Shown here piece after piece: positions 1,904-50,800 of a stretch of 64,000 bases of DNA. Position numbers and translations under genes: made by a program. A model generated the notes under the pieces. The model saw only the letters and a list, made by a program, of their open reading frames with translations, had not been told where the DNA came from and ran no database searches. Position 1 is the first letter of the stretch; each line of letters opens with the position of its first letter. The DNA is from Branchiostoma floridae (taxonomy: Eukaryota; Chordata; Leptocardii; Amphioxiformes; Branchiostomatidae): the NCBI RefSeq assembly GCF_000003815.2, contig NC_049983.1, forward strand, positions 23,368,806 to 23,432,805, read 5' to 3'.

Positions 1904-2074
1904 CTTTTCAAAACAAGATTGATTTTTTCATGAAATCCATTGAAATAACACTGCTTTTCCTGTTTTTGTATCTTTCAGTTCCTCACGTCTACACAAGAGT
2001 GTACAAAAAATCAGCTGTGACTATTAAGAAATCAATTCACTGTGAAATACTAGTTCAGCACTGAGTGCAGCACC

Positions 2075-5000
2075 ATGACAGGCCAAGGTCAAGGTTTCTC
2101 GTTGCCATGGATACTCCTGACTGCTGCCCTTGTCCTTCACGTGCCCCCCACCAGCGGGATGTACGAGGATCAGATCGGGAAGTTCGATTGGCACCAGCAG
2201 TACATCGGCGCTGTCCGGCAGGCCGCCTTCGACCAGTCCGCTCCAGTCAGCAAGCGCATCTTCGTCGGCACCGAGTCCAACGTCGTGGCGGCCATCAACT
2301 CACGCACGGGGCAGCTGGCCTGGAGGCACGTGCAGGAGAGGGGAGACCCCTGGGGGGTGGATGCGGTACTGCACAAGGGCAACGTCTTGGTGACGGTGTG
2401 CAGTGGCGGGGATGCAGTCCGTGCGTGGGATCCGGCTAGCGGAACCCTCCTATGGGAGTTTCTCGCAAAGGAGAAGAACGATTCCCCAGCGAAGGCACTT
2501 CTTGTAGAGGGCAGGCAGGACGAAAGGTCACACGTGGAATCAGTCGCAGTCCTGACCAAGAAGACGCTGAGGATCCTCTCGGCAGTGGACGGCCATGAGA
2601 TGGTGAGCACAGAGGTTTGGTCAAGCGGAGAGACTGGGGGAATTTCAGTCTTGCACCAGGCGAGCAATGGCCAGCTGTATGCAGTCAGCATTTCTAGCCA
2701 AGCCGCCGTACAGATCGTTTCATACACCCACGTCCCTGGAAAGGGTTACGAGGCGGTGAAGAGGGTTATACCAGCAGGGTGGGCCTTGCCCCAGTCCACT
2801 CAGTGCGTGGTCACCGGAGACAACATCCTGGTCTGCTCAGAAGCCAGCACCAACTCCCTCCACACCATATCGCTTGTGGATGGCAGCGGCTTTACTACAG
2901 TCACCCTCCTGTCACTGGGGTTCAACAGCTGGCAGCCTGACAGCCTAGCCATTAGTGCAGTACAGGTCAGTAGGCATGTTCTTCTATTGTTGTAATGGAC
3001 ACAAGTTACCAAGAAAGGTACTTTTAGTAGGAAAGATCTTTATGGACTGAGTGTTGTGCAGATTTCTTTAGTATTGAAGAAATTACAGTAGCCATTGTAA
3101 TTTGAAGAAAATTTCCTCACTGTAGTTAGTTTCAAATGATGTGTATCAAATATGTATTTATCATACTTTGAGCCAGGTAATAAGTTATGCCAACTAGCAA
3201 TTACCCAAGCAACTGGATTTTGGAAATGGTTGAAGACATTTCAAACATGTTTTGGTGAATGTTGTAGAATTTTTTAGGTGCATGTGTGACTAATAGATCA
3301 TAGTTATAATGACTTGATTTTTCTCTAAATGTTTCTTACTGCTTTATGATATGGTACAGGTCGGGAGGAAGGAGGTACTTCTGCGGCTGTCTCAGGACCA
3401 CTACGTCCTCCTGCAGGCCACGGCAGACACGATCACTGTTCTGAAGGATCTCCCCAACGTGTACGCCACCACCACGGCAAGGAGTCAGGACAGGGACATC
3501 ATGTTCATGGTGAAGAAGGGAACCAAGGACGAGCTGGTCGTCACCGGCTTCTACCTACAGAACCTGAAAGAAGACCAGGCTCTGACACAGATGATAGCCC
3601 ACCCGCTGCATTATGGGTCACCACAGCAGGTTTGTTGTTTATTGAATTATTATCCTTTAGTTGTTGACAGCATATCACTGCAACATCTACTCTTCCAGGA
3701 GTAATGATTACACATAACACTTGGACACATAACATGCACAACATATAACATGTCATTCAAAAAAATCATTAAAAAATGCATGTGCCATATCAAAGCTAAA
3801 AAAATGCACGTGCCATATCAAAGCTGTCAAGTACCTCATGTGCCATTAGCTGAGTTTTGCATGTGTTTCATTAGCTGCTGTCTAAACATCTTGGACGTAC
3901 TCACAGTTTGCAATTCATATGCTAGTTGGTTCCATTCGGATGTTGCTCTATATGTGAAGGATTTCTTAAGACTGTCTTTTGTTTCCCAGGTCACGGTGTA
4001 CACGTTCCTGAAGCGCGACGGATCGACAGGATACCGCGCTCTGCTGCAGATGGAGGACCAGACACTGCTGATGCTGCAGCAGCTGCAGGGGAACCAGGGG
4101 CACGTCATGTGGCAACGCAATGAGGCGCTTGCCTCAATCTCCGCCGTGGATCAAGTCGATCTGCCCGTGTCCGAAACAGAGAGCAAGTTTGAGGAGGAGT
4201 TTGGAGAAGAGTCGGAGGAAGACCTCTCCATCTGGCAGATGTTCACCAGAAGGATCACCACTCAGCTGGAACAGCTGAAGGACCTTGCCGACAAGTTTGA
4301 AGAGTACAGGAAACCCAAGGCCAAACAGGTGGAGAAACAGCTGGAGAGGGATCCCTTCAACCTCCGCAAGATGATCGTGGCGGTAACGTCGGCTGGTAAG
4401 CTGTACGGACTGGACAGCGCGAACGGGGACATCGTTTGGCAGTACTTCCTGCCGAACATCCGGTGCTTCGGCCAAGGCGAGATGTACCTGTTCGTACAGC
4501 GGACCACCGCGCACTTCCCCCACCCCCCACAGGCCATGCTGGTTGCCCAGGACAAGGCCACTGGGAACGGACTTGTCTTCACGTTCAACCCCACCACCGG
4601 GCAGCCCGTCAACGCTAGCGCTGTCTCGGGAATCCTACAGCCTTTCAAAGTGCTGCAAGCGATCCTCCTGCCCGTGATGAACAACCACCATCTCCATCCC
4701 GTCATGATTGTCGACTCTGATCATGGTGTTCACATCTTCCCGCCTTCCTCCTCTGTCCTGTCTGTCCTGAAGAAAAACAACGGAAAGATCTTCCTCCATG
4801 CCGCTGACCTTGAGAAGAGCACGCTAACCGGGTTTAGCCTCACCACGCTTAAAGATGGAAAAGTGGAACTTGCGCAAGCCTGGCATCTCAGCCTCCCGAT
4901 CCCGTCCCAGAAGATCGTGAGCGTTGTTCCAAGGAGAGCTAACGAGCACGTCCATTCCCAGGGCCGCGTGTTAAGCGACAGAAGCGTCATGTACAAGTAC

Positions 5001-5771
5001 CTCAACCCCAACCTGCTGGCTGTAATGACAGAGGGCATAGAGCGAGACATCCCCCTGTTGACCCTGTATCTGGTGGACGCCGTGACCGGACAGGTTGTGT
5101 ACAGCATGCAGCACAAGCGGGCCAGCGGGCCCGTCCATCTGGTCCACTCCGAGAACTGGGTCGTCTACCACTACTGGAACGGGAAGTTTCGCCGCCACGA
5201 GGTGACCGTGCTGGAGCTCTTCGAGTCGCAGGGAGACCGAAACTCCACCACGTTCTCGTCCCTCTCCACCCAGAGCCTACCTCTCGTCCTGCAACAGGCC
5301 TACATCTTTCCCATGGGATTATCCGCCATGGCCGTCAGCAACACAGAGCGCGGCATCACCGCTCGCAGCCTCCTCCTTGCCCTACCAAACGGCGGCCTCA
5401 TGACCCTCCCGAAGAACATCCTTGACCCCCGGCGACCCATCATCCCCACCAAACAGCACCAGGAGGAGGGGGTGTACCCCTACATCCCCGAACTCCACGT
5501 CAACCCCATGACTCTCCTCACCTACAACCAGTCCATCGAGGGGATACGGGGGATCCATATAGGAGCAGCGGGGCTGGAGTCTACCTCCGTGGTGCTAGCG
5601 TACGGATTGGACCTGTTCTACACCAGGATAATGCCGTCACAGATGTTTGACGTGCTGAAGGAAGACTTTGACTACTTCTTCATCAGTTCTATATTGTTGG
5701 GACTGGTCATGGCCACTCTGATCACCCATCGACTAGCTGCCATGAAGACTCTGAATAGGAGTTGGAGATAG
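2075..5771 (+). CDS. EMC1: ER membrane protein complex subunit 1 (EMC1), complete, 3 coding exons
   Basis: Coding exons are 2075-2965, 3360-3629 and 3990-5771, all in phase 0 with GT-AG borders, giving 980 aa (human EMC1 is 993 aa). EMC1 is the largest subunit of the complex that inserts tail-anchored and multipass proteins into the ER membrane. The start CACCATGA opens a signal peptide (about residues 1-28). The lumenal part shows PQQ/WD-type propeller strands of the kind 'NSRTGQLAW', 'DPASGTLLW' and 'DSANGDIVW'. An acidic segment follows near residues 449-470, then the conserved C-terminal EMC1 domain. A single membrane helix (about 950-970, FFISSILLGLVMATL) and a short cytosolic end 'LNRSWR' finish the protein. 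No frameshift or missing region is apparent. Intron 2 carries a LINE fragment right next to exon 3. Confidence 0.95.
3836..3989 (-). mobile_element. Non-LTR retrotransposon reverse transcriptase C-terminal fragment
   Basis: Read on the minus strand, the intron encodes 'KKSFTYRATSEWNQLAYEL' followed by a 'F..QL..HM' stretch. This is the typical C-terminal signature of reverse transcriptases of LINE elements (S(F/Y)xYRxxxxWNxL). The fragment runs almost to the exon 3 acceptor of EMC1, so the acceptor pyrimidine tract may derive in part from LINE DNA. Only a short remnant is present. Confidence 0.6.
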
Positions 5772-15400: not shown

Positions 15401-18400
15401 TCAACTTGCACATTTCTTTAGGACGCTGTCTCTGGGTAAGTGACATGTTTGGGACTATTCTGCTCGTAGGTAAAGATCATCGTCTAGAAATGTTGTACAA
15501 CAATTGACAGTGTGACTTCTTTTTTCAACTTCTGGTTGCATATCGAGGATTTCTTTTTTAGTTAGTATTACATTTCTGCTGTAAATTATCTCTTTTAAGT
15601 GACAACTTGTTACAGCTAATTCTGTACTTGATCAATGGTACACCAGATGACTGGAAATATTTAAAAAAATACAACAAAATTGAGCCAAGTAATTATAAGT
15701 AGCGCTATTTTTTTCAGGTCACTTCCTTGTCAGACAACCTGGTAGAATGTATGATAGGGAGTAGCATTAGGGGGTAAGAATGCTAAACGTGGATACATTA
15801 ATTAAGTCATAATTCATTATAAGATTATGTCAAAAAAAGTACATTCAGTCAAGCAAGATTGTTGAGGAGCAATCTAATTAATATTAATATGTTAAAGCTA
15901 TATTTTACATACATCAATGTAACAGCTACCGGGAGTCCATAATTCAAGGCAGCATTTGTGCCCGTATCTCTCGACTGTCTGTTGCGGTCACTAAGATAAC
16001 TCAAGAACAGCTGAATGGACTGGTTATTTCTATATTTGATATGCTAGGTGGATGTGACAATAACTAGAATTTAGGACTAGATTTTGGGTTCCCTGGTGGT
16101 TTGCTTTGGTAATGCAGCAGAACTTCCTGCTTCGAATATCGTGTTGTGGACATTGTCTTGATTTTAGAGTGTAGTAGGTGGCTCTTGGGAAAGACAAACA
16201 TTGAATATATTTATATTTTTTTTTTATTCACCGCAAAACAAGGCTGTTGGAGCCACTTAGACGTTTTGGGTTACAATACTGTATAGTGAAGAAAGACTTA
16301 AACAGTTGTAGATTGTACCCCGTGGGAAAGCAGGTCCGTGGAAGCTCATTCCATGACGAAGTTGTTCTTGGAAAAAAGCTCTGAGCGTGGAACTTCCTCC
16401 TAGTAGGAGGATTGTGGAGGAAAAAAGGATGATTTGCTTCCGTGGAAGTGGCTTAACGGGTTCTTGCAGTGAAGGTTCGTATTAGAGGCACAGATGAGTG
16501 AAGTTCTGCCAAGCATTTACCATGGAAGTAGCGATAGAATAGTGCTAGTCTAGCTACATCACGCCTTTGGGACAATTTATTAAGTGACTGCAGGGGCCAA
16601 CTTTGTTGGAGCTTTTAGAAGAAAATAGGATAAGAGGTGATGGATTGTCATGATTTGGGGTACATGTGTATAGCATAGAGATCCCATTTGCATAATTAAT
16701 CACCACAGTTCTTTACTGATCAAACATTTTTAAAATTTCATCACGGTAAAAATGTAAAACTTTAAAAGTTCTTATTTTGGAGGGATTTACTGCCAGTGAC
16801 AATTTCCCCCGTCTTCCTATATCAGGGCACAGAGAACAGCATGGGTGAGAAGCTGCCAGGGATGCTGTTATCCCTTCTGATCATCCTGAAGGTGTTTGGA
16901 TCAACAGAAGCTTCCTGCAGCATTTCTGGTTCTTATGCTGACTGTAGCAACCAGGGTCTGACCAGTGTTCCTCAGGACCTGCCAACAGGCATCACTGAAC
17001 TTGATTTGTGGGGAAATCAAGTCACAACATTAGATCAGTCTGATTTCTCACGGTATGGGAGGTTGACACATCTATATCTAGGAAACACTCATATTTCAAC
17101 AATCAATAGCCAAGCTTTCTTTGACTTGCCAGACTTGATCAATTTGAATCTTGATGGGAACCGCCTATCAAGTATCAGATCTGACATGTTCACAGGGCTG
17201 GGAAACTTGGAGACCCTGTCCTTAGATGGTAATGAGATCAGTGATATTCAGACTGGGCCTTTCAATTCAACACCTCAACTAAGAATCTTGTCCCTGGAGA
17301 ATAACAACTTAACAAACCTCAGGTCTGACATGTTTACAGGGCTGGGGAACTTGAAGACCCTTATCTTACACAGTAATGAGATCAATGATGCTGGAACTTT
17401 CAATTCAACACCACAACTGAAATTTCTGTCCCTGTCTCAAAACAAGTTAACAAACCTCAGATCTGACATGTTTACAGGGCAGGGAAACCTGGAGTACCTT
17501 TGGCTGGACAATAACGAGATCAGTGATATTCAGGCTGGAACTTTCAGTTCAACATCACAGCTGAGAACCTTGACCCTGCATCAGAATAGACTGACACTCT
17601 TCAAAGCAGACACATTTGCAAACCTAACACTACTTACAACCCTCCAATTATACAGGAACAACATAGCTACGTTTCCTATAGAAGCTTTGTCAAAGCTTCC
17701 ATCACTTTCTGGGCTTCAGCTTCAGGACAACCAAATGGTGACTCTGCCATCAACAGCCTACAACAGACTGTTATCACTCTCTTATGTAAGCATTGACAAC
17801 AACCCGTGGCAGTGTGACTGTAGGATGCTTCCCTTCAGGCAAAAGATGACTGGGTCTCATTTAATTGAAAACCAAATCACATGTGAAGGACCCAGCAACT
17901 TCCATGGGCAAAGGCTTAAAGATATCAATCCTGAAGATCTGATGTCAAACTGTGAAGAACCAACAATAGTGAGGTTTGGGAAGAGTGACAATAACACAGT
18001 CATAGAGGGAGAGACACTCCGCTTGGTCTGTGAAGTTTCAGGAATCCCCACACCAGACATCACAGTCACCCTCCCATCTGGACTGAATGTATCTGTTGAG
18101 TCAGGCGGGAGGGTGACTGTGGATGTGAATGGTACCATCACCATAACCAATGTTACTGCAGCAGCAGACGCTGGTCTGTATGTCTGTGTTGCAACAAGTT
18201 CTGTTGTTGGCTCGACGTCAGCAACACTACTTGTAGATATCCAACTGAAAGTAGCCACAACTGGTAATGTCAAAACAGTTACCACAACCGGAATAGTCAA
18301 GACAATGACTACAACTGGTATATTGAATACAGCCGCCACAACTGGTACAGTCAATATAGTGGGCACAATTGGTAAAGTAACTACAGTAGCCAAAACTGAA

Positions 18401-21400
18401 ACGATCACTACAGTGGCCACAAGTGGAACTTTGTCACCAGTAACTTCACCTCTTGCTATGACTGGTGCCTTAAACAAACCAGAAAGTAGTACAACTTTCT
18501 CCCTCCCTGTTCTCATTGGTTCTGTGTGTGGCTCAGTAGCAGGTACTGTCCTCGTTGTTACCATCATTCTCATAATCTGGCGCAGGAGAAAGACCCAGAA
18601 CCCTCCCTCAGGCCCAACCCCCCCAGTTGTTTTCAGTAGCGCAGCAGCTAGTGTCACAATTAGGGATGGGTACCAGTACAGAAAATTCGGGTCCAGGTCC
18701 GGTTCAGGTCAAAAGGATCAGGTCCAGGTCCGGACCTGAACCTGGACCTGATTCAGTATGACTCATACCAATGGTCCATTTCACTACAAAGAAATCTGTT
18801 TGGTGGAGTATTTGACTTACACTGGCATTTTAAAGTCCTACAACGCTAACTGCACCTGTACGATTGACTGTAAAACTTGGTAGAAATTGCTATAAACTCT
18901 ACTCTACTATACTCTTGTTATTTTCTTCCACCTGCAAGCGCCAAAACGTGTGAATGCCAGATAAAATGATCTTTTAATTTTCTAATCGGTCCAACATCCG
19001 GTCCACCTAATTTTTTAAGGTCCGGTTTTTCTGGACCGGTCCCAGGTTGTAGCCAGCACCCATCCTTCCGTCCCTTGACGGAATTTTGCAGCTGGGGACG
19101 GAACAAGGTTTTTCCCATTCCGTCCCCTGTGACAGACAAAAATTGATATGTAAAGATATCAAAAAAAAATGAAACCCGTAATTCTTCACAAAAACAGATG
19201 CCATTGAACAGCTTAGTCTACCAGCAAAATTTACACCTCAAAATGCAAGAAATAGTGTTTTAGAGGTTCTAGATTCAAAAATTTTCTGGGACCCCAGACC
19301 CCCTAGAAATATCGCACAACATCAGGCCATGCCTTCGGTGCTCGATAGGATTCCCATTCAAAATCAAGTGGACGGAAAATGATTTCAGGCTGGCTACAAC
19401 CCTGACCGGTCCAATAAGAAAAACCGGTTTTGTACCGGTACGCTGTACCGATACCCAGCCCTAGTCACAATCAGTGGGCATAATCAGACAGGGCAGGGTG
19501 GGGCCCAGCAGTCTACAAGTGAAACCTTGAAATCCATGAGATCAGAAAATGTCCTGGGGCATCCTGCCTCTCTGACTCTCAAGTACAAAGATGTGGTATT
19601 GCCACCAAGGAATATGATGCCTAATAATGCAAGTCTGAGACAACCGCCTGCTGAATACCGGTCCCTTGGGCCAAGGCAACAACCTGCTGAACACATATAC
19701 ATGTCCATCCGACCAATGAAACAACCAGCTGAATACCAGTCCCTTGGGCCCAGGCAACAGCCAGCTGAATACCAATCCCTTGGGCCCAGCCAACAACCAG
19801 CTGAATACCAGTCCCTTGGACCTAGTATGAAACAACCAGCTGAATACCTGGTCCCTTGGACCCAGGCAACCACCAGCTGAATACCAGTCCCTTGGACCCA
19901 CGCAACAACCAGCTGAATACCAGTCCCTTGGGCCCAGGCAACCACCAGCTGAATACCAGTCCCTTGGACCCAGGCAACCACCAGCTGAATACCAGTCCCT
20001 CAGACCCAGGCAACAACCAGCTGAATACCTGGTCCCTTGGACCCAGGCAACCACCAGCTGAATACCAGTCCCTTGGACCCAGGCAACCACCAGCTGAATA
20101 CCAGTCCCTTGGACCCAGGCAACAACCTGCTGAATACCAGTCCCTTGGACCCAGGCAACAACCAGCTGAATACCAGTCCCTTGGGCCCAGGCAACCACCA
20201 GCTGAATACCAGTCCCTTGGACCCAGGCAACAGCCAGCTGAATACCAGTCCCTTGGACCCAGGCAACAGCCAGCTGAATACCAGTCCCTTGGACCCAGGC
20301 AACAACCAGCTGAACACATGCACATGTCCATCAGACCAATGAAACAACCAGCTCATCAGTCTTTTGCATTCAGGTAACAATCTGCAGAATACCAGCCCCT
20401 TCAACAGATCCAAAGAGTTCACAGGAGTGATGACCCCCCCCCCCCCCACTTCCCCTGCCTAGTGCTGCTCATGACACACAATTGCAACATCACTACGGCC
20501 ACCAATCCCTAAAAAGACATATCATTTTAAACAGTCATTCTAAATGTTAGTAAAATTCTTCCNNNNNNNNNNNNNNNNNNNNNNNNNNNNNNNNNNNNNN
20601 NNNNNNNNNNNNNNNNNNNNNNNNNNNNNNNNNNNNNNNNNNNNNNNNNNNNNNNNNNNNNNCAATGTACAATCATGTACTTTGTCCTACCTAAGGGCTT
20701 ATATTTTCTCAAAATCAAAATCAGAAAATGTGATTTATTGTGACATAATGATATCGCAAATACACTGTACAGCCTAGGATATTCACTGTGAAAAAGTGTG
20801 GTCATGGTAGAACTCAGCCATTATATGGGGTTTAGTGTTTTTTCTGGATTGGTTGCTGTATGTGAAATTATGAATTTCATTTTTTTTCCATGTCAATCTA
20901 CATGAATATTGCACTAATTCTTTTGTGATGGAATCCTGAAATCTGTGATGTTAAAGTTTAGAATATCACTTTGCATGTATTACTCACAATGGCCACTGGT
21001 TATCATCAGACTGAGGATCAATCTACTTTCTGCAGTATGTCATATAGTAGACTACTACAAAGAAGATTTACTAAGTTAAACTGTAACTGTAGTAAATGGA
21101 TCACAATTTATAGACCGATAATTCACCATCATTACACTATAATAGTATGTCAGGCTCTATGCCAGAGCATAATATTATTACATTTGTACAAAGTTTGACT
21201 TCCAATACAAATTGCCATTCATTTAGACTTAACAGAGTTACATGTTACCTTGAAGTATACTGCTTTGTGCAAAGTTGTACAAATGTGTACATGTATATGG
21301 CTGATATCATATGAAACATAAGGCTGGCTTGTTTAGGAGTATACAGTTCATAAACTATTTGGGAATACAGGCATGTTTTTGGTCATATGGGGAATATAAC

Positions 21401-24400: not shown

Positions 24401-27400
24401 TTTCAGCCTGTAGGATCAACTAACATTTCAGATCTTCAAGACGCATCTAGGTACATCTTCATCTTTGTGTTACGTTTGTGACTCTTTTGCTTGTAGATAA
24501 AGATCATCTTCCAGATTGAATTGTACTGTACAATTATAATAATCCCTTTTTGGGGTTGTATACATCTGGGGCCTCTCGATCTCATCTCTCATCCTTTGTT
24601 GAGGACGTACTCTGCGTCTCATCTACAGGACAAGGCTTGTTTGCAAACACAAAAAAATAATCTGCTGCACAACAAAATAAAGAATTCTCCCGGCATTTTT
24701 AATTTGCATGCTAGAGGTCACAGTTTGTCACACGCGCACCGCAATGGAATATTGCGCCTTGGGTGTCCCTCGATACTCTAAACGTGTGTCTAAAGACAAC
24801 CGTTGCCCACCACGATAATACACAATAACAGTCACACGACTATATAACTGTTGTCTGTCTAAAGTGGGCCTTAGTGGTGCTTTACAAGTGGAGTACCTAA
24901 ACCCGTGTAGGCCTGTACCTAAAGTTTGTACCCCATGTTACGCTGTTTTCCAATTACATGGTACATTTGTCAGAACCTACATTGCACTTAACTTATAATT
25001 AGATACAGAGATTGTCAAACCCTCCAGAAAAGGCGGCACAGAGCTGACAGCTATGGGAGGGGTTAACTAGTCACGGATAATCAGCTATAGTTCCAGTGAA
25101 AGGCCAAGATAGTTTCTGTGATCTTGCAATAGAATCATGTGTAGTTCCACCCTGAGATCAATGTTTGGGGATGTGTGGGGATTCTTATTTACATAATCAA
25201 TGTGAAACATTTACGTGACATAACGGTTAACAGGACTGGCAAAAGTCTGAGGTAGACAAACTCTAATTAGGAAATGAAATTTCTATGGTGTATGTAACCA
25301 TAGTGGATACAAAGTCAATGTACAAATTGTGCTCAGGGATTCCATTTGCATACTAGTAGTCAATCACCAATGACCAAAGATTGAACTTCATAATCATTAT
25401 GGTGAAATTAAGTTTTCATTTGGGACGGATACTGTCAGTCAAAATGCTGTTTCAAGTGTCGAATTAGTATATGAAAGTTACATCATATGACTAAAAATCC
25501 CCCTTCTTCTTTTTAATTTTGACATTATCAGAGCACAGAGATCATCATGGGAAAGAAGCTGCCAGGGATGCTGTTATCCCTTCTGATCATCCTGAAGGTG
25601 TTTGGCTCAACACAAACTTCCTGCACCATTACAGGTTCTACTGCTAACTGCAGCAACCAGAACCTCACCAGTGTTCCTCAGGACCTGCCGACAAACATCA
25701 CTGAACTTGATTTGGGGAATAATCTAATCACAACATTAAATCAGTCTGATTTCTCACAGTATGGGAGCTTGACCAGTCTACATGTAAGGGGCAATCGTAT
25801 TGCTACAATCAAAAGTCAAGCATTCTATAACCTGTCAGATTTGACCCATTTGGATCTTAGTTGGAACCGCATGTCCAACATCATCACTGACATGTTTACA
25901 GGGCTGGGGAACTTGAAAACACTTTGGTTGTATAGCAATAGGATTAGTGATATTCAGGCTGGAACTTTCAGTTCAACACCACAACTGACAACCTTGTCTC
26001 TGGGTAATAACAAGTTAACAAACCTCAGTGCTGACATGTTTACGGGGCTGGGAAACTTGGATAACCTATACCTGCACAGCAATAAGATCAGTGATATTCA
26101 GGCTGGAACTTTCAGTTCAACACCACAACTGACAACCTTGTCTCTGGGTAATAACAAGTTAACAAACCTCAGTGCTGACATGTTTACGGGGCTGGGAAAC
26201 TTAGAGAACCTTGACTTACGTCATAATGAGATCAGTGATATTCAGGCTGGAACTTTCAGTTCAACTCCACATCTGACAACCTTGTCTCTGGGTAATAACA
26301 AGTTAACAAACCTCAGATCTGACATGTTTACAGGGCTGGGGACCTTAGACATACTTTGGCTGGACAATAATGAGATCAGAGATATTCAGGCTGGAACTTT
26401 CAGTCCAACTCCACAACTGAGATACTTGCGGTTGTATCAGAATAGACTGACATTATTAAAAGAGGAGACATTTGCAAATCATGCACTAATTAGATGGCTT
26501 CGACTGCACAGCAACAACATAAAAAACTTTCCCATGGAGGCTTTGTCAAAGCTTCCATCACTTTCTGAGCTTCAGCTTCAGGACAACCAAATGGTGACTC
26601 TGCCATCGGCAGCATACAACCAGCTGTTATCACTCTCTACTGTAAACATCAACAACAACCCCTGGCAGTGTAACTGTAGCATGCTTCCTTTCAGGCAAAA
26701 GATGACTGGGTCTCATTCATTTGAAAACCAAATCATTTGTGAAGGACCGAGCAACTTCCATAGACAAAAGCTTACAGATATCAATCCTGAAGATCTGAAG
26801 TCAGACTGTGAAGAACCAACAATACTGAGGTTTGAAAGGGCTCACAATAGTGCAGTGGTAGAGGGGGGGACTCTACATTTGGTCTGTGAAGCTTCAGGAA
26901 TCCCCACACCAGACATCACAGTCACCCTCCCATCTGGACTGAATGTAACTGTTGAGTCAGATGGGAAGGTGACTGTGGATGTGAATGGTACCATCACCAT
27001 AACCAATTTTACAGCTGCAGCAGATGCTGGTTTGTATGCCTGTACTGCAGCAAGTGTTGTTGGGTCTACATCTGCCACAATGACAGTTCCTGAGTCTACT
27101 AATACCTTCTCCCTACCTGTCGTTGTTGGCTCTGTCTGTGCAGTAACTTGCTTTGTCCTCCTTGTTACCATCATTCTCACAATTTGGTACAAGAGGAGAT
27201 CTAAAAGTCCCTTATTTGGGCTCAGATTCAGATGAAGAGGAGTATGATGATGTGATNNNNNNNNNNNNNNNNNNNNNNNNNNNNNNNNNNNNNNNNNNNN
27301 NNNNNNNNNNNNNNNNNNNNNNNNNNNNNNNNNNNNNNNNNNNNNNNNNNNNNNNNAGATGAGCCTCAGTCCCACAAGTATGAAAACAGCCAGGTGATAG

Positions 27401-30400
27401 CAGCTGTTCAAGATGCTGTGGCAGGTCCTCCAGTTATTTTGTATGAAAATGAAGATGAGTCAGCAACTGAAAAAGATGATTTACTTTCCCACAAGTATGA
27501 AAACAGCCAGGTGATAGCATCTGTTCAAGACACTCTGGCAGTTCCTATAGTAATGTTGTATGACAATAATGATGAGACAGTAAAAGATGATCCTCAGTCC
27601 CACAAATATGAAAACAGCCTGATGATAGCAACTGCTCAAGACACTCTGGCAGTTTCTCCTGTTATCTTGTATGAAAATGATGATGAGTCAACTAGGAAAG
27701 ATGACCCTCAGTCCCATAGGTATGAAAACAGACAGATGATAGCAGATGCTAAAGATGATTTGGTGGTTTCTCCAGTAATCTTATATGAAAATGATGATGC
27801 CTCAGTAAAAGATCCTCAGTCCCACAAGTATGAAAACAGCCAGATGATAGCAGATGCTAAAGATGATTTGGCGATTTGTCCAGTTACCTTCTATGACCGG
27901 CCACGGCCCAACAGGTATCTGAACGGCCAGATGATAGCAGCTGCTCAAGACATTCTGACAGTTTCTCCAGTAATCTTGTATGAAAATGATGATGAGACAG
28001 TAAAAGATGATCCTCAGTCCCAGAAGTACCAAAACAGCCAGATAATAGCAGCTGCTAAAAGTAGTTTAGTAGTTTCTTCAGTTATCTTGTATGAAAATGA
28101 CAATGAGTCAGTAACTAGGGAATATGATCCTCAGTCCCTTCAGTATGAAAGCAGCTGTTAAAGATACTTTGGCAGTTCCTCCAGTTATCTTGTATGACAG
28201 ACCACGGCCCAACAGATATCAGAACAGCCAGATGCTAGCAGCAGCTAAAGATGCTGTAGCTGCTTCACAGGTTATCAGCTATGAGAATGATGATGAGTCA
28301 GCTGATAACCAGACCCAGGCTGATAACCAGAATGATCCAGCAGCTGTCCATGGTACTGATGATACAAACCATTACCAACAACTGAGGAAAGAAACCCTTG
28401 AGCAGCAGCATACCTACACTTCCCTTTTGGCTCACAACCAATTATTTTCCCAAACACATATCAGAAATTTTTTCTCAATCAAAGCAGTACCCAAATCAAC
28501 TTTCTGTGCCTCAACCCAAAACTTGAGATAAACTTCAAAATGCTGCCTTTTATTTTCTTCAGTCCAAGTCATAAGTACAAGCGCAAGAAGATATCAGCAG
28601 AATGTTTGAAAGTTGTGGTGTAGAACTACAAAATTATTCCAAAAGGAATTTGTACTTTTCTCCACTGCATGTACTAAGCACAAGTGCATCAAGCTTAACA
28701 TGACATCAAGCTGAAAGTTTCAAAGCTGTGGCGTATAATTATGAGTTATAACAATATTGAAAATAGAGATTTGTGTTTTGTTGAAGAAAATTTTACTGAC
28801 ATATTCATAAGGTGATGTTTGTTATACCCTGTTCCTTCAGCCTAAATAAATACTAGGTATATATTCTAAACAAACTGACGATGACGAACTCAAGACACTT
28901 ACTTGCATGGTGCCCTCAATGTGGGATTTTAGATAATGCAGGAACATGTAAAAGTTTGTACATTACATGGTGTCGCTGTGGTAGTGACAGCCTTGTCAAA
29001 TCAAGCCGGCAGCCGGCTATTTTCCCCGCCTACTTTACATTTTTCAGCCGCCTACTTTTGTTACAAAATCCCCCAGCAATTTGTCTTGATAAACCTCTGG
29101 CAGTTTTCTGATAGCTTACTGGGTCTTCGGGGACCTGAAAACTGTCATTTTGACGAATGTCCCACATGTGTATTAGGTTTTCTCTGTTGTTTACATTATC
29201 TGAGCTTGCAGCAGACACTGCCACCACACCTCCAAGGAGGCGGAGTTCTAATATCTGGACCTTTGAGTGCATGGGCCTAGCTCTGTGTGCCTGTGACTAT
29301 TTTCTGGACTATAACTAGAAACACGACATGCCTGATTGTGGATGGATTCTTTCACAAAATGGTAGAGGTTAATTCCAAGATGTAAACTCATAAAGATATA
29401 AGCTGACAAGAAAAGTTGCCCAGGGGTCTACATTTACAAATTTTTCCTGGGGGAGGCCCCCCAAACCCCCCCCTACAGGAGGGGGGCAACCCCCCTCCCG
29501 TACCTACCCCCCACTCGCCACTTTGTGGCTCGCTGCAAGCCGCAAAGCGGCTTGCCTGCTACTTTCAGATATTAGCCTACTACTTTAAAAGTTTCTGACA
29601 AGGCTGGGTAGTGAACATAATATATTCAAGATTTGAAATTGCCTACATGTACATATTTTTTATTACAAATTGCATGATAATTGTACATTTAGCTACTCAC
29701 AGTCCTAGTATATAATTGATGGAAATGCCAATATCTTAGAATTTGGATAGACTAAATCGTTTTAAGTGTCTGCCATGCATTTAGCACTTGCACCAGAATA
29801 GTTTTTAGTAATTAGAGATTTTTCCTCACCAGTGTTCCTCAGAACCTGCCGACAGGCATCACCCACCTTGATTTGGAGAGAAATCAAATCACAACATCAA
29901 GTCAGTCTGATTTCTCACGGTATGGGAACTTGACATATATGGATCTAAGACACAATCATATTGCTACAATCAATAGCCAGGCATTCTATAACCTGTCAGA
30001 TTTGCTCCATTTACAACTTTCATCAAACCGCCTGTCAAACCTCAGATCTGACATGTTCACAGGGCTGGGAAACTTGCAGACCCTTTGGCTGCACTATAAT
30101 GAGATCAGTGATATTCAGGCTGGAACTTTCAATTCAATACCACAGCTGAGAACCTTGCGCCTGCATCAGAATGAGTTAACAAGTCTCAGATCTGACATGT
30201 TTACAGGGCTGGGAAACTTGGAGGAACTTGGGCTGTCCAATAATGAGATCAGTGATATTCAGGCTGGAACTTTCAATTCAACACCACAACTAAGAGTCTT
30301 GAGGCTGTATCAGAACACGTTAACACACCTCAGATCTGACATGTTCACAGGGCTGGGAAACTTGGAGACCCTTAGCTTATACATTAATGAGATGAGTGAA

Positions 30401-33400
30401 ATTCAGGCTGACAGTTTTAATTTCACACCACAACTGATAGGACTGTCCCTGTCTAGAAACAAGTTAACAAACCTCAGATCTGACATGTTTACGGGGCTGG
30501 GAAACTTAGAAGAACTTTGGCTGCACACTAATGAGATCAATGATATTCAGGCTGGAACTTTCAGTTTAACACCTCAACTGACAAAATTGTACCTGCATAA
30601 GAACAAGTTAATCAGCCTTAGTGCTGGCATGTTTACAGGGCTTCCATCACTCTCTGAGCTTCAGCTTCAGGACAACCAAATGGTGACTCTGCCCTCAGAA
30701 GCCTACAACAAACTATTATCAATCAGGTCTATAAACATCAACAACAACCCCTGGCAGTGTGACTGTAGGATGCTTCCCTTCAGGCAAAAGATGACTGGGT
30801 ATCGTTCATTTGAATACCAAATCACATGTGAAGGACCGAGCAACTTCCATGGGCAAAAGCTTAAAGATATCAGTCCTGAAGATCTGATGTCAGACTGTGA
30901 AGAACCAACAATACTGAAGTTTGAAAGGGTTCACAATAACACAGCTGTAGAGGGGGAGACTCTACATTTGGTCTGTGAAGCTTCAGGAATCCCCACACCA
31001 GACATCACAGTCACCCTCCCATCTGGACTGAATGTAACTGTTGAGTCACTGACAGGTAGAAGGGTGACTGTGGAGGTGAATGGTACCATCCCCATAACCA
31101 AATTGAATGTTACTGCAGCAGCAGACGATGGTCTGTATGTCTGTGCTGCAACAAGTCCTGTTGGCTCAACATTTGCCACATTGCTTGTAGATGTCCAAAT
31201 GAATGTGGCCACAACTGGTACAGTCACTACAGCGGACACAACTGGTACAGTCACTACAGCGGACACAACAGGTACAGTCACTTCAGAGGCCACAACTGGT
31301 ACAGTCACTACAGTGGACACAACTGGTACAGTCACTACAGCGGACACAACTGGTACAGTCACTTCAGAGGCCACAACTGGTACAGTCACTACAGTGGACA
31401 CAACTGGTACAGTCACTACAGCGGACACAACTGGTACAGTCACTTCAGAGGCCACAACTGGTACAATGTCACCAGTAAGTTCACCCCTTGCTGTGACAAA
31501 CACCAGCTTAAACAAACCAGACAGTAGTACTAGCTTCTCCCTCCCTGTTCTCATTGGCTGTGTGTGTGGCTCAGTAGCAGGTACTGTCCTTCTTGGCGCC
31601 ATCATTTTCACAGTCTGGTACAAGAGGAAGACCCAGAACCCTCCCTCAGACCCAACCCCTCCAGTCGTCTTCAGTAATGCCTCAGCTAGTGTCACAATCA
31701 GTGGGCAAGGTCAGACAGGGCAGGGTGGGGCCCAGCAGCCTACAGGTGAATCCCTGAATGCGAGACACTCATCAGACCACGCCCCAGGCCGTCCTACCTC
31801 TCTTGAGTATGAAGACGTTTCACTGCCAAAAAGGAACATGATGCCCAATGGTGCAGGTCCGAGACAACCACCTTCCAAATACCAGTCCCTTGGACCCAGA
31901 CAACAACCTGCTGAATATCAGTCACTGGAACCTATGAAACAATCGTCAGAATACCAGTCCCTCGGACCCAACAAAAACAGAGTTCCCAGTGATGACCTCC
32001 CCCCACTTCCCCTGCCAACAGGTGCCAATAACACCCAACACTACTACCAGTCCCTAAAAAGACATATATAAGCATTCCAGACTAAACGTTTAACTAAATA
32101 GAATTCTTACACCACCTATTGGTATATACTAGTAGGTAATTCTTTGGGATGATGTCTATTTCTGCCCTCGTGCCATTACAACTGGGGGCTAGTCTCTTAC
32201 AAGGTAGCATTGCGTGTTCAACTTCCATACATTTTTACTTTCAAAGGTTTTGGCATGACCCAGCCAAGTTGATTTTATAAGCAACAGATCCTTTAGTTAT
32301 TGAACCTTATTCTACCTTATTTTAACCTACTGAACACTTTGTAAGAACGTCTGTCTAAGCCTTTTAGATGTAAATAGTGCTTTATGCATTTAGCAGGTTA
32401 TCTTAGTATTAAACCACAATTTAGCCCTATTAGTACTAGTAGGGCTTTGAAAATGTACGTTTTAGTGTGTTGTGTACCGCATAAACCAGTTAAGCATCTA
32501 GGACATTGTATTACCTTAGATTATTGAATAGATTTAATCAATAACCAAATGTATCACTTCAACTCTAATGTGACTATTCATTATGTTAGTTAATAATTAA
32601 ATGACTAATTAACTAATCATATAGAATATGCAAACTTGAGGTAAAAGAGATGTACATATTGGACAGTCAATGTCTCCTATGCAGAATATGTGTGTGTCTC
32701 ATGTATGCATCATTGGAACTTATAATATTACTATACATTATTTTGTGTTTTTTCACCATTGGTGACTAAGTCTTATAAAAAGTATGCAACATATTCAGCA
32801 CTGAAAGTGTTGAGTGAAAATGCATGCAAAAAAAGTGTTTGTTGGACTAGCATCATAATGATTGTATCTCTCTGATTGAAATACAATGTACTCTGACTTG
32901 CATATGTTAAAGATGACCGAAAAGTTGTTAATGTATGCCTGAAGCTGACACATGTTTATGGCTTTGCTTTTATCTAATAAAAACAATAATTGCACTGTTA
33001 ACTGAAAGGGCTATGTGCGCTATTGACTCTTTTACTTGACAACTTGAAGGTGTTTTTTTTTTATTTCTGATACTATAGTGATAGAATTTCAAAGCAAGAG
33101 GTATTACTTTCAGTCTACTTAACAGTATTTGAGGGCCCTTTCTTTTTATAATGAAACTAAACTATATGCAGGGTGCAAACTTGAGAACTCTCTTGTAGGA
33201 ATTGGTTGTATCGTTATGAGTTCAGGAGCATACAGGTTGAAACGTCAGTTGAACACCTCATGTGACATTCTATGTATAAGGAGAAATATGTAACATCCAC
33301 TCTGACTCGTAATTGTACCGGGCTCCACATGAAAAAAAAATATAGGAATTCAATGTGATTCAAAGTCACAAAGAAATGTACCAAATGAATACAGCTTTAG

Positions 33401-47800: not shown

Positions 47801-50800
47801 TATTACCCTACATGTTCTTGAATTTTTAATAATGTTTTAATCAGGTGAAAGAGAACAGTTTCTTTACAGTTATTAAAGTCTTTCTTATGTGACAAGGCTA
47901 CTCAAAGGTCTTGAAATTCTCAATTTTTAGGTTAGGCTCACCTACAGTAGTGCACCTACAGTATTCCCAAAAATGAGTTTTGACTTTGATCCCTAAACCC
48001 TAACCCAAATATTATCATATTTTGACACATTGTTTCCTGATGTTGTTGCTGCCGTAGCCCTCATAAACAACTCTTAGCATTTCCCAAGTCTTTAAACAAC
48101 AGGAAACATTTCAGGGTTCCTTTTGATGTTCAGTTACTTGACAAATGATGAATGGTAAAATGAGAATGACGCGACATGGAATAGACATAATGACACCAGT
48201 CCAAACTGGCACCATCTCGCGACATGTCTGATATGTCTCTAGGAGTAGGAGTAAACTCAGAGGGTCAAAAGGGGACAGGTCTTTGTCACAAACATGATTT
48301 CAGGTCTTGAAAAGTTCTTGTCCCTTGTCCTTCTGAGCCCGTTTGTATACGGGATGGACATATTTAACCCTTGTCATGCTGAGCTGTATTTTGATGGGTT
48401 TGGGGTATTTCTCATGTAAAAGCTGCATACCACTGCAAAGCCCATCGAATGGGGGAGTAAATCTGCATCAGCAGCACAGAACAAGTTTTACTTATCTGAT
48501 GGAGCCATCGGCTTTGGGAAGTTAAATTGGCCAAAAAATTGCCAGCAGGACAAGGGTTAAGTCTTTGGAAATCTCTTTTGATCTGACAATTGAAATGGGG
48601 GGGGGGGTGTATTGTGGGGCTTACAGATGCAGGAGTAAAGTCACCAGATCAAAACACTTTCCCACAAACATGATTTCAGATCTTGAAAAGCCCTTTAAGT
48701 CTTTTAAAATCTCTGGTGATCTGACAATTGAAATAGAGAGGGGGGGGGGCATATTGTGGGGTTTACAGAATCTGATGCAGGAGTAAAGTCACCAGATCAA
48801 AAGACTTTCCCACAAACATGATTTCAGATCTTGAATGGTTCTTTAAGTCTTGTAAAATCTCTTTTGATCTGACAATTGAAATGGAGGGGGGGGGGCATAT
48901 TGTGGGGTTTACAGATACAGGAGTAAAGTCAGCAGATCAAAACACTTTCCCACAAACATGATTTCAGGTCTTGAAAGGTTCTTTAAGTGTTTTAAAATCT
49001 CTGGTGATCTGACAATTGAAATAGAGAGGGGGGGGCAATTATTGTGGAGCTTACAGATGCAGGAGTAAAGTCAGCAGATCAAAACACTTTCCCACAAACA
49101 TGATTTCAGATCTTGAAAGGTTCTTTAAGTCTTTAAAAATCTCTGGTGATCTGACAATTGAAATAGAGAGGGGGGGGGGCATATTGTGGGGTTTACAGAT
49201 ACAGGAGTAAAGTCAGCAGATCAAAAGACTTTCCCACAAACATGATTTCAGGTCTTGAAAGGTTCTTTAAGTGTTTTAAAATCTCTGGTGATCTGACAAT
49301 TGAAATAGAGAGGGGGGGGCATATTGTGGAGCTTACAGATGCAGGAGTAAAGTCAGCAGATCAAAACACTTTCCCACAAACATGATTTCAGATCTTGAAA
49401 GGTTCTTTAAGTCTTTAAAAATCTCTGGTGATCTGACAATTCAAATAGAGGGGGGGGGGCATATTTTGGGGTTTACAGATACAGGAGTAAAGTCAGCAGA
49501 TCAAGCGTCTTTGTCACAAACATGATTTCAGATCTTGAAAGGTTCTTTAAGTCTTTAAAAATCTCTGGTGATCTGACAATTGAAATGGGGGGGGGGCGTA
49601 TTGTGGGGTTTACAGAACAGGAGTAAAGTCAGCAGATCAAACGTGTTTGCCTCAAACATGACTTCAGGTCTTGAAAAGCCCTTTAAGTCTTGTAAAATCT
49701 CTCTTGATCTGAGAATTGAAATAGAGAGGGGGGGTATTGTTGGGCTTACAAACGCAGTAGTAATAATAATAAAGTCAGCAGATCAAAAGACTTTGCCTCA
49801 AACACGATTTTAGGTCTTGAAAGGCCTTTTAAGTCTTTGGAAATCTCTTGTGGTCTGAGAATTGAAATGGGGGGGGCGTACTGTGGGGCTTACAGAATCA
49901 AATAAAAGAAGCTGTACAACAGGTCTTTGTTCCTCAACTTCAATGGTACTTGTTTGATCAGTATACACAGATCATGATTCTTTGCGTAGGGCTAGACTTT
50001 GAAAATAGGAAACGTCAGATCTAGACTATGGAGTATCTTTGGAAGACTAAACTTAAATGCAATTTGTTGGTACATGTATGATAATGCCATCACTGGGTAT
50101 TTATAGTAGATCTACACCGATAGAGGGCAACACTGTAAATCAGACTTACCACTGACTGATCATTTTGTTTAACAAACCAGCTTTGTAGGCACACGATAAG
50201 TCTGGATGATCAGACCATAACTTCTGAATCTTAGTAATAGTATGTATCCTTGTAGACTGAAATTCGAATGTTTTTAACTTTAAACATTAATCAATAAATG
50301 TCTCCTCCAGGACCATCCCAGTGAACCCCATGCAGTGCCAGAACTACGACTGTAACCGTGACAAGCGGTACGGCATGCACGAGACATACGACTACCACAT
50401 CAAGTGTCGGCTCAGGCAGCGCAACATGGGGCTCTTCACTGCTGATCAGGTAATGTTTGTTTGTTTGTTTGTTTGGGAAATATAGTCAAATCCGTTGATA
50501 CTAACCACTCAAGGGGTTTGTTTATTGAAACTGGCTGCAGTAGACAGATGGTCACTGTAGACATCATTCTTATTGCTTCGGTTGATATGGAAAATGAATT
50601 ATAGATAATGTTTAGGTCATCATTATGCAGAGATGGCAGGCAATGCAGGTTTGACTGTACTGCACTTTTGCTTGTACAACATAGAAATTGTCTGAAAAGA
50701 ATCGATAAACATTGAACAGCAATCAATCGATCATAGTAAGGACTTTGAAAAAATTATAAAACCTGACCTCCAATATCTCTTCATCAGTGTCAAATACACT

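Follow-up and report, generated by a model that had tools for sequence, protein, structure and literature searches.

Can a minisatellite that encodes a tyrosine motif every 12 residues furnish an immune receptor with an expandable signalling tail? The question is raised by a stretch of the Branchiostoma floridae genome (assembly GCF_000003815.2, contig NC_049983.1, positions 23,368,806 to 23,432,805 of the forward strand; the whole 64,000 nt are called the window here), in which a 36-bp array of YQSL-encoding units follows a gene for a leucine-rich-repeat and immunoglobulin-domain (LRR-Ig) receptor. A first-pass annotation of this DNA had read the array as the tail of that receptor, gene A, and had proposed that some 17 ITAM-spaced motifs are carried there in an expandable form. 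Our analysis leads elsewhere: the array is most probably what remains of an LRR-Ig receptor gene's tail after decay and disconnection, a severed and frameshifted tail minisatellite, and the more promising motifs lie in paralogues whose tails are still open.

Gene A and its probably severed array

The locus comprises the following features, in window coordinates:

16841-18739, plus strand: gene A receptor ORF (within open reading frame 16766-18739; start codon inferred; KLPGML at 16850)
18653-18660, unstranded: left 8-bp target-site duplication (TSD), GTCACAAT, flanking the hAT-like element
18661-19463, plus strand: hAT-like element in tail-coding sequence, with inverted ends and 8-bp TSD; 433 bp plus a nested element, 803 bp in total
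19043-19404, plus strand: nested hAT-like element of 362 bp with its own 8-bp TSD, ACCGGTCC
19464-19471, unstranded: right 8-bp TSD, GTCACAAT, flanking the hAT-like element
19472-19880, plus strand: proximal part of the severed tail plus the start of the array (YRSL, YMSI, three YQSL), within ORF 19383-19880 and in frame with gene A once the empty site is joined
19650-20314, plus strand: 36-bp minisatellite (Tandem Repeats Finder, TRF: 18.2 copies, 88% matches, score 993; unit table)
19836-19872, plus strand: first 37-bp frame-shifting unit (unit table)
20017-20053, plus strand: second 37-bp frame-shifting unit, its change identical to the first (unit table)
20375-20377, plus strand: TAA ending the last stretch in the YQSL frame, where the repeat pattern, judged by eye, suggests an original CAA

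That an LRR-Ig receptor lies upstream of the array is confirmed, the Pfam models LRR_8, Ig_3 and I-set all matching gene A, whose ORF runs from a signal-peptide-like start through LRRs, an Ig domain and a Thr-rich stalk to a membrane span (the span by eye). The combination of LRR array, Ig domain and membrane span recurs in the paralogues B and C of the window and in the L066 gene described below (LRR and Ig by Pfam, the span by eye only); in the L030 gene Pfam recognises LRRs and no Ig domain. The stalks between Ig and membrane span, rich in Thr (TTGTVTTA), are themselves encoded by 27-bp minisatellites at 18250-18426 and 31207-31465, with longer versions in L033 and L034.

The receptor frame ends at a TGA (18737-18739) located within the inserted element, leaving as assembled a tail of 48 residues past WRRRK in which there is no YxxL/I motif and no match to the ITAM pattern YxxL/I-x6-8-YxxL/I. 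The element bears the marks of a hAT-like MITE, namely an 8-bp TSD, terminal inverted repeats and many uniform short copies; the superfamily name is our assignment, presumed from the length of the TSD and the shape of the ends. A genome search scored at least 39 other copies among 5772 first-look candidates, and each of the seven best matches measures 433 bp and has perfect 8-bp TSDs. The window copy is longer because the 362-bp element is nested inside it; with that insert removed it is 433 bp long as well and differs from the consensus of the seven copies at 15 of 433 positions (3.5%). When the element and one TSD are excised in silico, the receptor frame continues via VTISGHNQ... to YRSL, YMSI and three YQSL before it stops, as in the open paralogues, and the element therefore landed in tail-coding sequence. 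From that position it imposes a stop downstream of the membrane span.

The array itself was described as 36-bp units giving Y-Q-S-L every 12 residues, a description of which one half stands. TRF and the unit table both recover it, so that neither the repeat nor its prevailing period of 12 residues can be put down to chance. Translated individually, each in its proper frame, the units comprise 14 YQSL, one YRSL and one YMSI, for the most part at intervals of 12 residues, in addition to two 37-bp units reading YLVP and a last unit reading HMHMSI. Uniform spacing and a single frame are the half that fails. The two 37-bp units share one compound change, CCAGTCCC -> CCTGGTCCC, and the array units therefore lie in frame 0, then 1, then 2, with at most seven YQSL units in any one frame; the frame that continues the receptor meets a TGA at 19878-19880, so placed that, even with the insertion taken out, only five YxxL/I motifs can be read before it, and these are unevenly spaced (x10, x8, x8, x8, then x9 to a broken motif). 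An uninterrupted ITAM tail for gene A was considered; the stop, the three frames and the five-motif limit that persists after excision rule it out.

The frameshift has been copied within the array: the 181-bp blocks that begin at the two 37-bp units are identical at 171 of 181 positions. Duplication of the frameshifted unit itself suggests that the array has grown without selection on its frame. The divergence between the blocks, 5.5% (about 2.8% per copy) against 3.5% for the hAT-like element, fits growth of the array at or after its disconnection, although the numbers are small, the values agree within error and gene conversion could disturb them. Once severed, the array would have been released from frame selection and would have kept expanding as an ordinary minisatellite, while gene A as assembled would encode, if anything, a short-tailed receptor devoid of YxxL motifs. 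The receptor part of gene A compared with that of gene C gives dN/dS 0.68 (p 0.0012, 552 codons), and gene A overall therefore does not look long dead; the shorter block of LRRCT and Ig gives 0.56 (p 0.064). For the tail, dN/dS is 0.52-0.70 between gene A and the open-tail genes and 0.42-0.50 among the open-tail genes themselves.

Three other accounts of gene A have to be set against the severed tail. The breaks might be assembly errors or the property of one allele, most alleles carrying an intact long array. Tandem arrays are hard to assemble, and the copy number given here comes from one assembly, in which a 100-base gap (20563-20662) lies 249 bases past the array; another allele may therefore be intact. 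However, the TSDs of the element are clean and a second element is nested in it, and the frameshift is a compound change found in two separate units rather than a homopolymer slip, so that we regard this account as unlikely. Quite unlikely, too, is that the element acts as a new intron, whose removal from the transcript would give the gene A receptor a tail of five YxxL/I motifs with its end at 19880. An in-frame donor and acceptor pair does exist (18708 and 19464), and the tail is open to 19877 if the element is skipped, yet both sites are weak: among 58 in-frame pairs of any quality that remove the element, the best has a donor agreeing with the consensus at 6 of 9 positions and an acceptor with 9 pyrimidines of 14, and the same region is a continuous open frame in gene C and in the L030 and L031 genes. 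That gene A has a working multi-ITAM tail, able to expand and comprising about 17 motifs, is highly improbable, for although the 36-bp units carry YxxL at ITAM-like spacing and the genome has Syk-like SH2 exons, the transposon and its stop precede the array and cut it off, the units fall into three frames, and the receptor frame holds at most five motifs even without the element. Of the YQSL arrays that we found, the longest is precisely the disconnected, frameshifted one; copy number in gene A thus probably reflects the loss of selection and not stronger signalling.

Open tails among the paralogues

Two further LRR-Ig genes lie in the window:

25547-28528, plus strand: gene B, an LRR-Ig paralogue (Pfam), its tail with 13 YxN motifs and one YQQL-x10-YTSL module (28373-28426)
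29816-32071, plus strand: gene C (LRRIG-3 of the first-pass annotation), an LRR-Ig frame (Pfam LRR and Ig) with an open tail

Four motif units had been counted in gene C, correctly, since it has four YQSL with tyrosine codons at about 31880, 31916, 31952 and 32045. Upstream of 29816 its frame shows neither a signal-peptide-like start nor an LRR N-cap (29400-29830 examined), and its 5' end may be truncated or lie on a separate exon, so that gene C counts as a putative functional gene; the L030 and L031 genes do have a signal-peptide-like start, as judged by eye. The gene C tail, used as a query, recovered similar tails inside the window as well as at four further loci of the chromosome on which it lies (C5:25.199, 22.75, 26.797 and 25.207 Mb) and matched no solved structure at E up to 1.

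The family is large: at least 150 places are listed as membrane-span-region matches among 256 candidates. Thirty loci were fetched, and the comparison of tails that had been suggested for all LRR-Ig paralogues was run on 17 close ones chosen from them. In three of the 17 (gene C and the L030 and L031 genes) the frame is open through a three-unit YxxL-x8-YxxL array, and to that extent the expected array is present; the other 14 stop before it in the genomic reading. Across the nine contiguous array units of the three open-tail genes (leaving aside the C-terminal YYQSL of gene C, the YLSL of L030 and the units of the broken loci L032 and L033), the YQSL codons give pS 0.58 and pN 0.05, a pN/pS of 0.09, against 0.69 for the linkers; in the six units with internal linkers the ratio is 0.06 for the motif and 0.64 for the linker, and all six of these linkers are 8 residues long. 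The difference between motif and linker, together with the constant linker length, suggests that selection has maintained the motif in the short arrays: by this codon comparison the YQSL residues of the open tails look constrained by purifying selection, whereas sequence drift in the linkers leaves their length of 8 residues unchanged. The fit to the ITAM consensus thus has a home in the open-tail paralogues, with their YxxL-x8-YxxL spacing and conserved YQSL codons, and none in the gene A tail as assembled.

Among the 30 tails scanned, out of the at least 150 places listed, the ITAM pattern occurs in three (L036, which is gene C, L039 and L041); shuffled versions of these three tails match it in 0.15-0.35% of cases, and those of other tails in up to 1.3%. 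Six of the 30 tails (L051-L053, L055, L061, L062) carry tandem arrays without any YQSL unit, so that minisatellites are a recurrent feature of tails in this family, with or without YxxL motifs. Another tail type, with the conserved block YVxPDGAxYMTPEDVLYExP, was seen in L057, L060 and L064.

Gene B represents a further type. Its frame is interrupted twice, at 27233-27235 next to a 100-N gap and near 28160; within the tail region (27357-28438) the 13 YxN motifs, which correspond to the Grb2-type consensus, are set in a repeat of about 111 bp. Searched with its YTSL module at an E limit of 0.1, the genome gave 27 matches, distributed over C5 and C15, of which we read those in loci L065-L079 (L068, L070, L073 and L075 containing only a short piece of the query and L079 none of it). 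The spacer is 10 residues in 12 of the 12 homologous modules read, and the x6-8 spacing of the ITAM is accordingly absent from the YxxL-YTSL modules of gene B-type tails. Both tyrosines are present in 11 of the 12, the exception being L069, which lacks the first tyrosine and whose module is preceded by a stop. The key codons have pN/pS 0.06 against 0.73 in the spacer (0.10 against 0.66 with one module per gene), in a test that somewhat favours YTSL, relative to which the modules were excised and which all of them have. A replacement rate of zero in modules picked by pattern was rejected as evidence, since picking the pattern fixes those very residues, and the 12 modules found by homology were used instead.

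The L066 gene (L066:1-2850, C5:25.19 Mb) has an open frame of 950 aa with a signal-peptide-like start and Pfam LRR and Ig matches, and its tail contains five tandem YxxL-x10-YTSL modules and several YxN motifs. It is the best candidate here for the multi-module receptor that had been envisaged for gene A, though its x10 spacing lies outside the x6-8 rule.

Candidate partners and roles of the motifs

A query with Syk on C15 matched an exon for the N-SH2 domain (E 3.8e-21) and, about 1.2 kb further on and in order, weakly one for the C-SH2 domain (E 6e-4). Among solved structures the Syk-like N-SH2 exon is closest to SYK (E 4e-40), with ZAP-70 next. Four other places match the C-SH2 part of Syk better than the one near the N-SH2 exon, and these we have taken for parts of other SH2 proteins. 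Two exons on C14 have as their best matches the two SH2 domains of SHP2, and further SH2 pairs, assigned by eye, are SOCS-like (C9), RasGAP-like (C2:31.2 Mb) and Src-like (C2:23.36 Mb). Judged by homology, the B. floridae genome encodes Syk-like and SHP2-like SH2 domains, a statement that extends to the domains alone.

In the open-tail paralogues a Src-family kinase would phosphorylate the YQSL tyrosines, and the phosphorylated motifs may dock tandem-SH2 proteins of the Syk-like or SHP2-like kind; additionally or instead, YQSL may serve as a YxxPhi sorting signal. The short arrays may thus act as immune signalling or sorting motifs, as far as their sequence can tell. None of the 11 motifs of gene C, L030 and L031 corresponds, by eye, to the inhibitory ITIM as given in PMC8211107 (I/V/L-x-Y-x-x-L/V). 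The residues at position -2 of these 11 motifs are A, S, G, H and C. Gene C has S at this position in two motifs, and S is allowed there in wider definitions of the ITIM.

The competing reading is sorting. The YQSL motifs of the open tails could be YxxPhi signals for endocytic or lysosomal sorting and not phosphotyrosine docking sites at all, an interpretation compatible with the severed tail of gene A and one to which we give a substantial chance, if somewhat below even. The fit of YxxL to YxxPhi (Y-x-x-bulky hydrophobic) had been pointed out at the start and extends to all nine array units of the three open-tail genes, YQSF included; YQxL, moreover, resembles classical mu2-binding signals. 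On the other hand, several copies at regular spacing look more like a phosphotyrosine platform, as do the tyrosine motifs YxN and YEDV/YEDI that other family members carry in their tails. Also against sorting stands the amphioxus LRR receptor BbLcLRR, which according to PMC8211107 is tyrosine-phosphorylated by Lck.

For phosphotyrosine docking and sorting alike, the three-unit YQSL tails and the five-module YTSL tail are better test objects than gene A, and candidate SH2 partners for them are encoded in the genome. Should the open-tail modules bind Syk, single-chain ITAM-like LRR receptors would exist outside the antigen and Fc receptor systems of vertebrates.

Tail loss and the comparison with known receptors

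The 14 close paralogues that stop before the array do so for various reasons: the hAT-like element in gene A, a frameshift in L063, a stop together with a change of frame in L044, a shared TGA in L043, L047 and L048, and other stops in L042, L045, L046 and L049; L037, L038, L040 and, with weak support, L050 look as if they have one frameshift in common. The open frame at the membrane span is 123 aa in L040, 119 aa in L044 and 432-861 aa in the remaining members that have lost the tail. In L042, L043 and L045-L049, which lie on C5 and have open receptor frames, several different truncating stops fall just after a conserved segment resembling TGHDQTGQGG.

Comparison of the receptor parts suggests, at the level of codons, that short-tailed receptors may be retained. 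The dN/dS is 0.59-0.67 (p 0.00014-0.0066) among L043, L047 and L048, which share the TGA, 0.54 (p 4.7e-6) for L045/L048 and 0.64 (p 0.026) for L046/L049; it is 0.81 (p 0.22) for L046/L043 and 0.68-0.92 (p 0.043-0.74) among L037, L038 and L050. With the shorter block of LRRCT and Ig, L043/L045 alone among the short-tailed pairs falls below p 0.05 (p 0.042).

Tail loss invites comparison with the paired receptors KIR, CEACAM and Siglec, which likewise include members with similar ectodomains and differing tails. The amphioxus short-tailed members depart from them in that no charged residue was seen, by eye, in their membrane span. If tails turn out to have been lost repeatedly and the short versions to have been preserved, LRR scaffolds may be a further setting in which paired receptors arose.

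The ITAM chains of vertebrates (CD3zeta, FcR gamma, DAP12) have paired YxxL/I motifs at short fixed spacing, mostly x7, with three pairs in CD3zeta. The B. floridae spacing is in contrast x8 in the YQSL type and x10 in the YTSL type, and the motifs belong to single-chain LRR-Ig receptors known here from sequence alone. With the amphioxus LRR-Ig (LRRIG) family the genes treated here share the order of LRR, Ig and membrane span and the large expansion.

The nearest functional precedent is BbLcLRR, an LRR receptor of Branchiostoma belcheri: PMC8211107 has its tail tyrosines phosphorylated by Lck, has it associating in human T cells with SHIP1 and, to a lesser degree, with SHP1/2, and describes its motifs DDYATV, HDYSEV and HDYDDP as ITIM or ITIM-like. 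It resembles our genes, on that account, as an amphioxus LRR membrane receptor with tail tyrosines as phosphorylation sites and a link to SH2-containing phosphatases, and differs from them in that the motifs so described include no YQSL unit or tandem array. Our literature search, which covered few subscription journals, returned no description of LRR-Ig tail repeats, their pattern of selection or recurrent tail loss.

A wider picture can be drawn, which at present we hold to be doubtful: the amphioxus LRR-Ig genes would form a class of pattern receptors with single-chain bi-tyrosine modules of their own, multiplied in tandem (five in L066, three YxxL-x8 in others) and shed elsewhere by transposon, frameshift or nonsense mutation, so that long-tailed signallers and short-tailed decoys would make up a paired system on LRR ectodomains, outside the Ig families of vertebrates.

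As to the rest of the 64-kb window, no Rfam family reached its gathering score and no tRNA was found. Exons of an EMC1 gene are present at 2054-5768 (Pfam EMC1 N and C domains), and at 48557-49896 a 140-bp unit is tandemly repeated about nine times, an array to which a 282-bp period was fitted as well.
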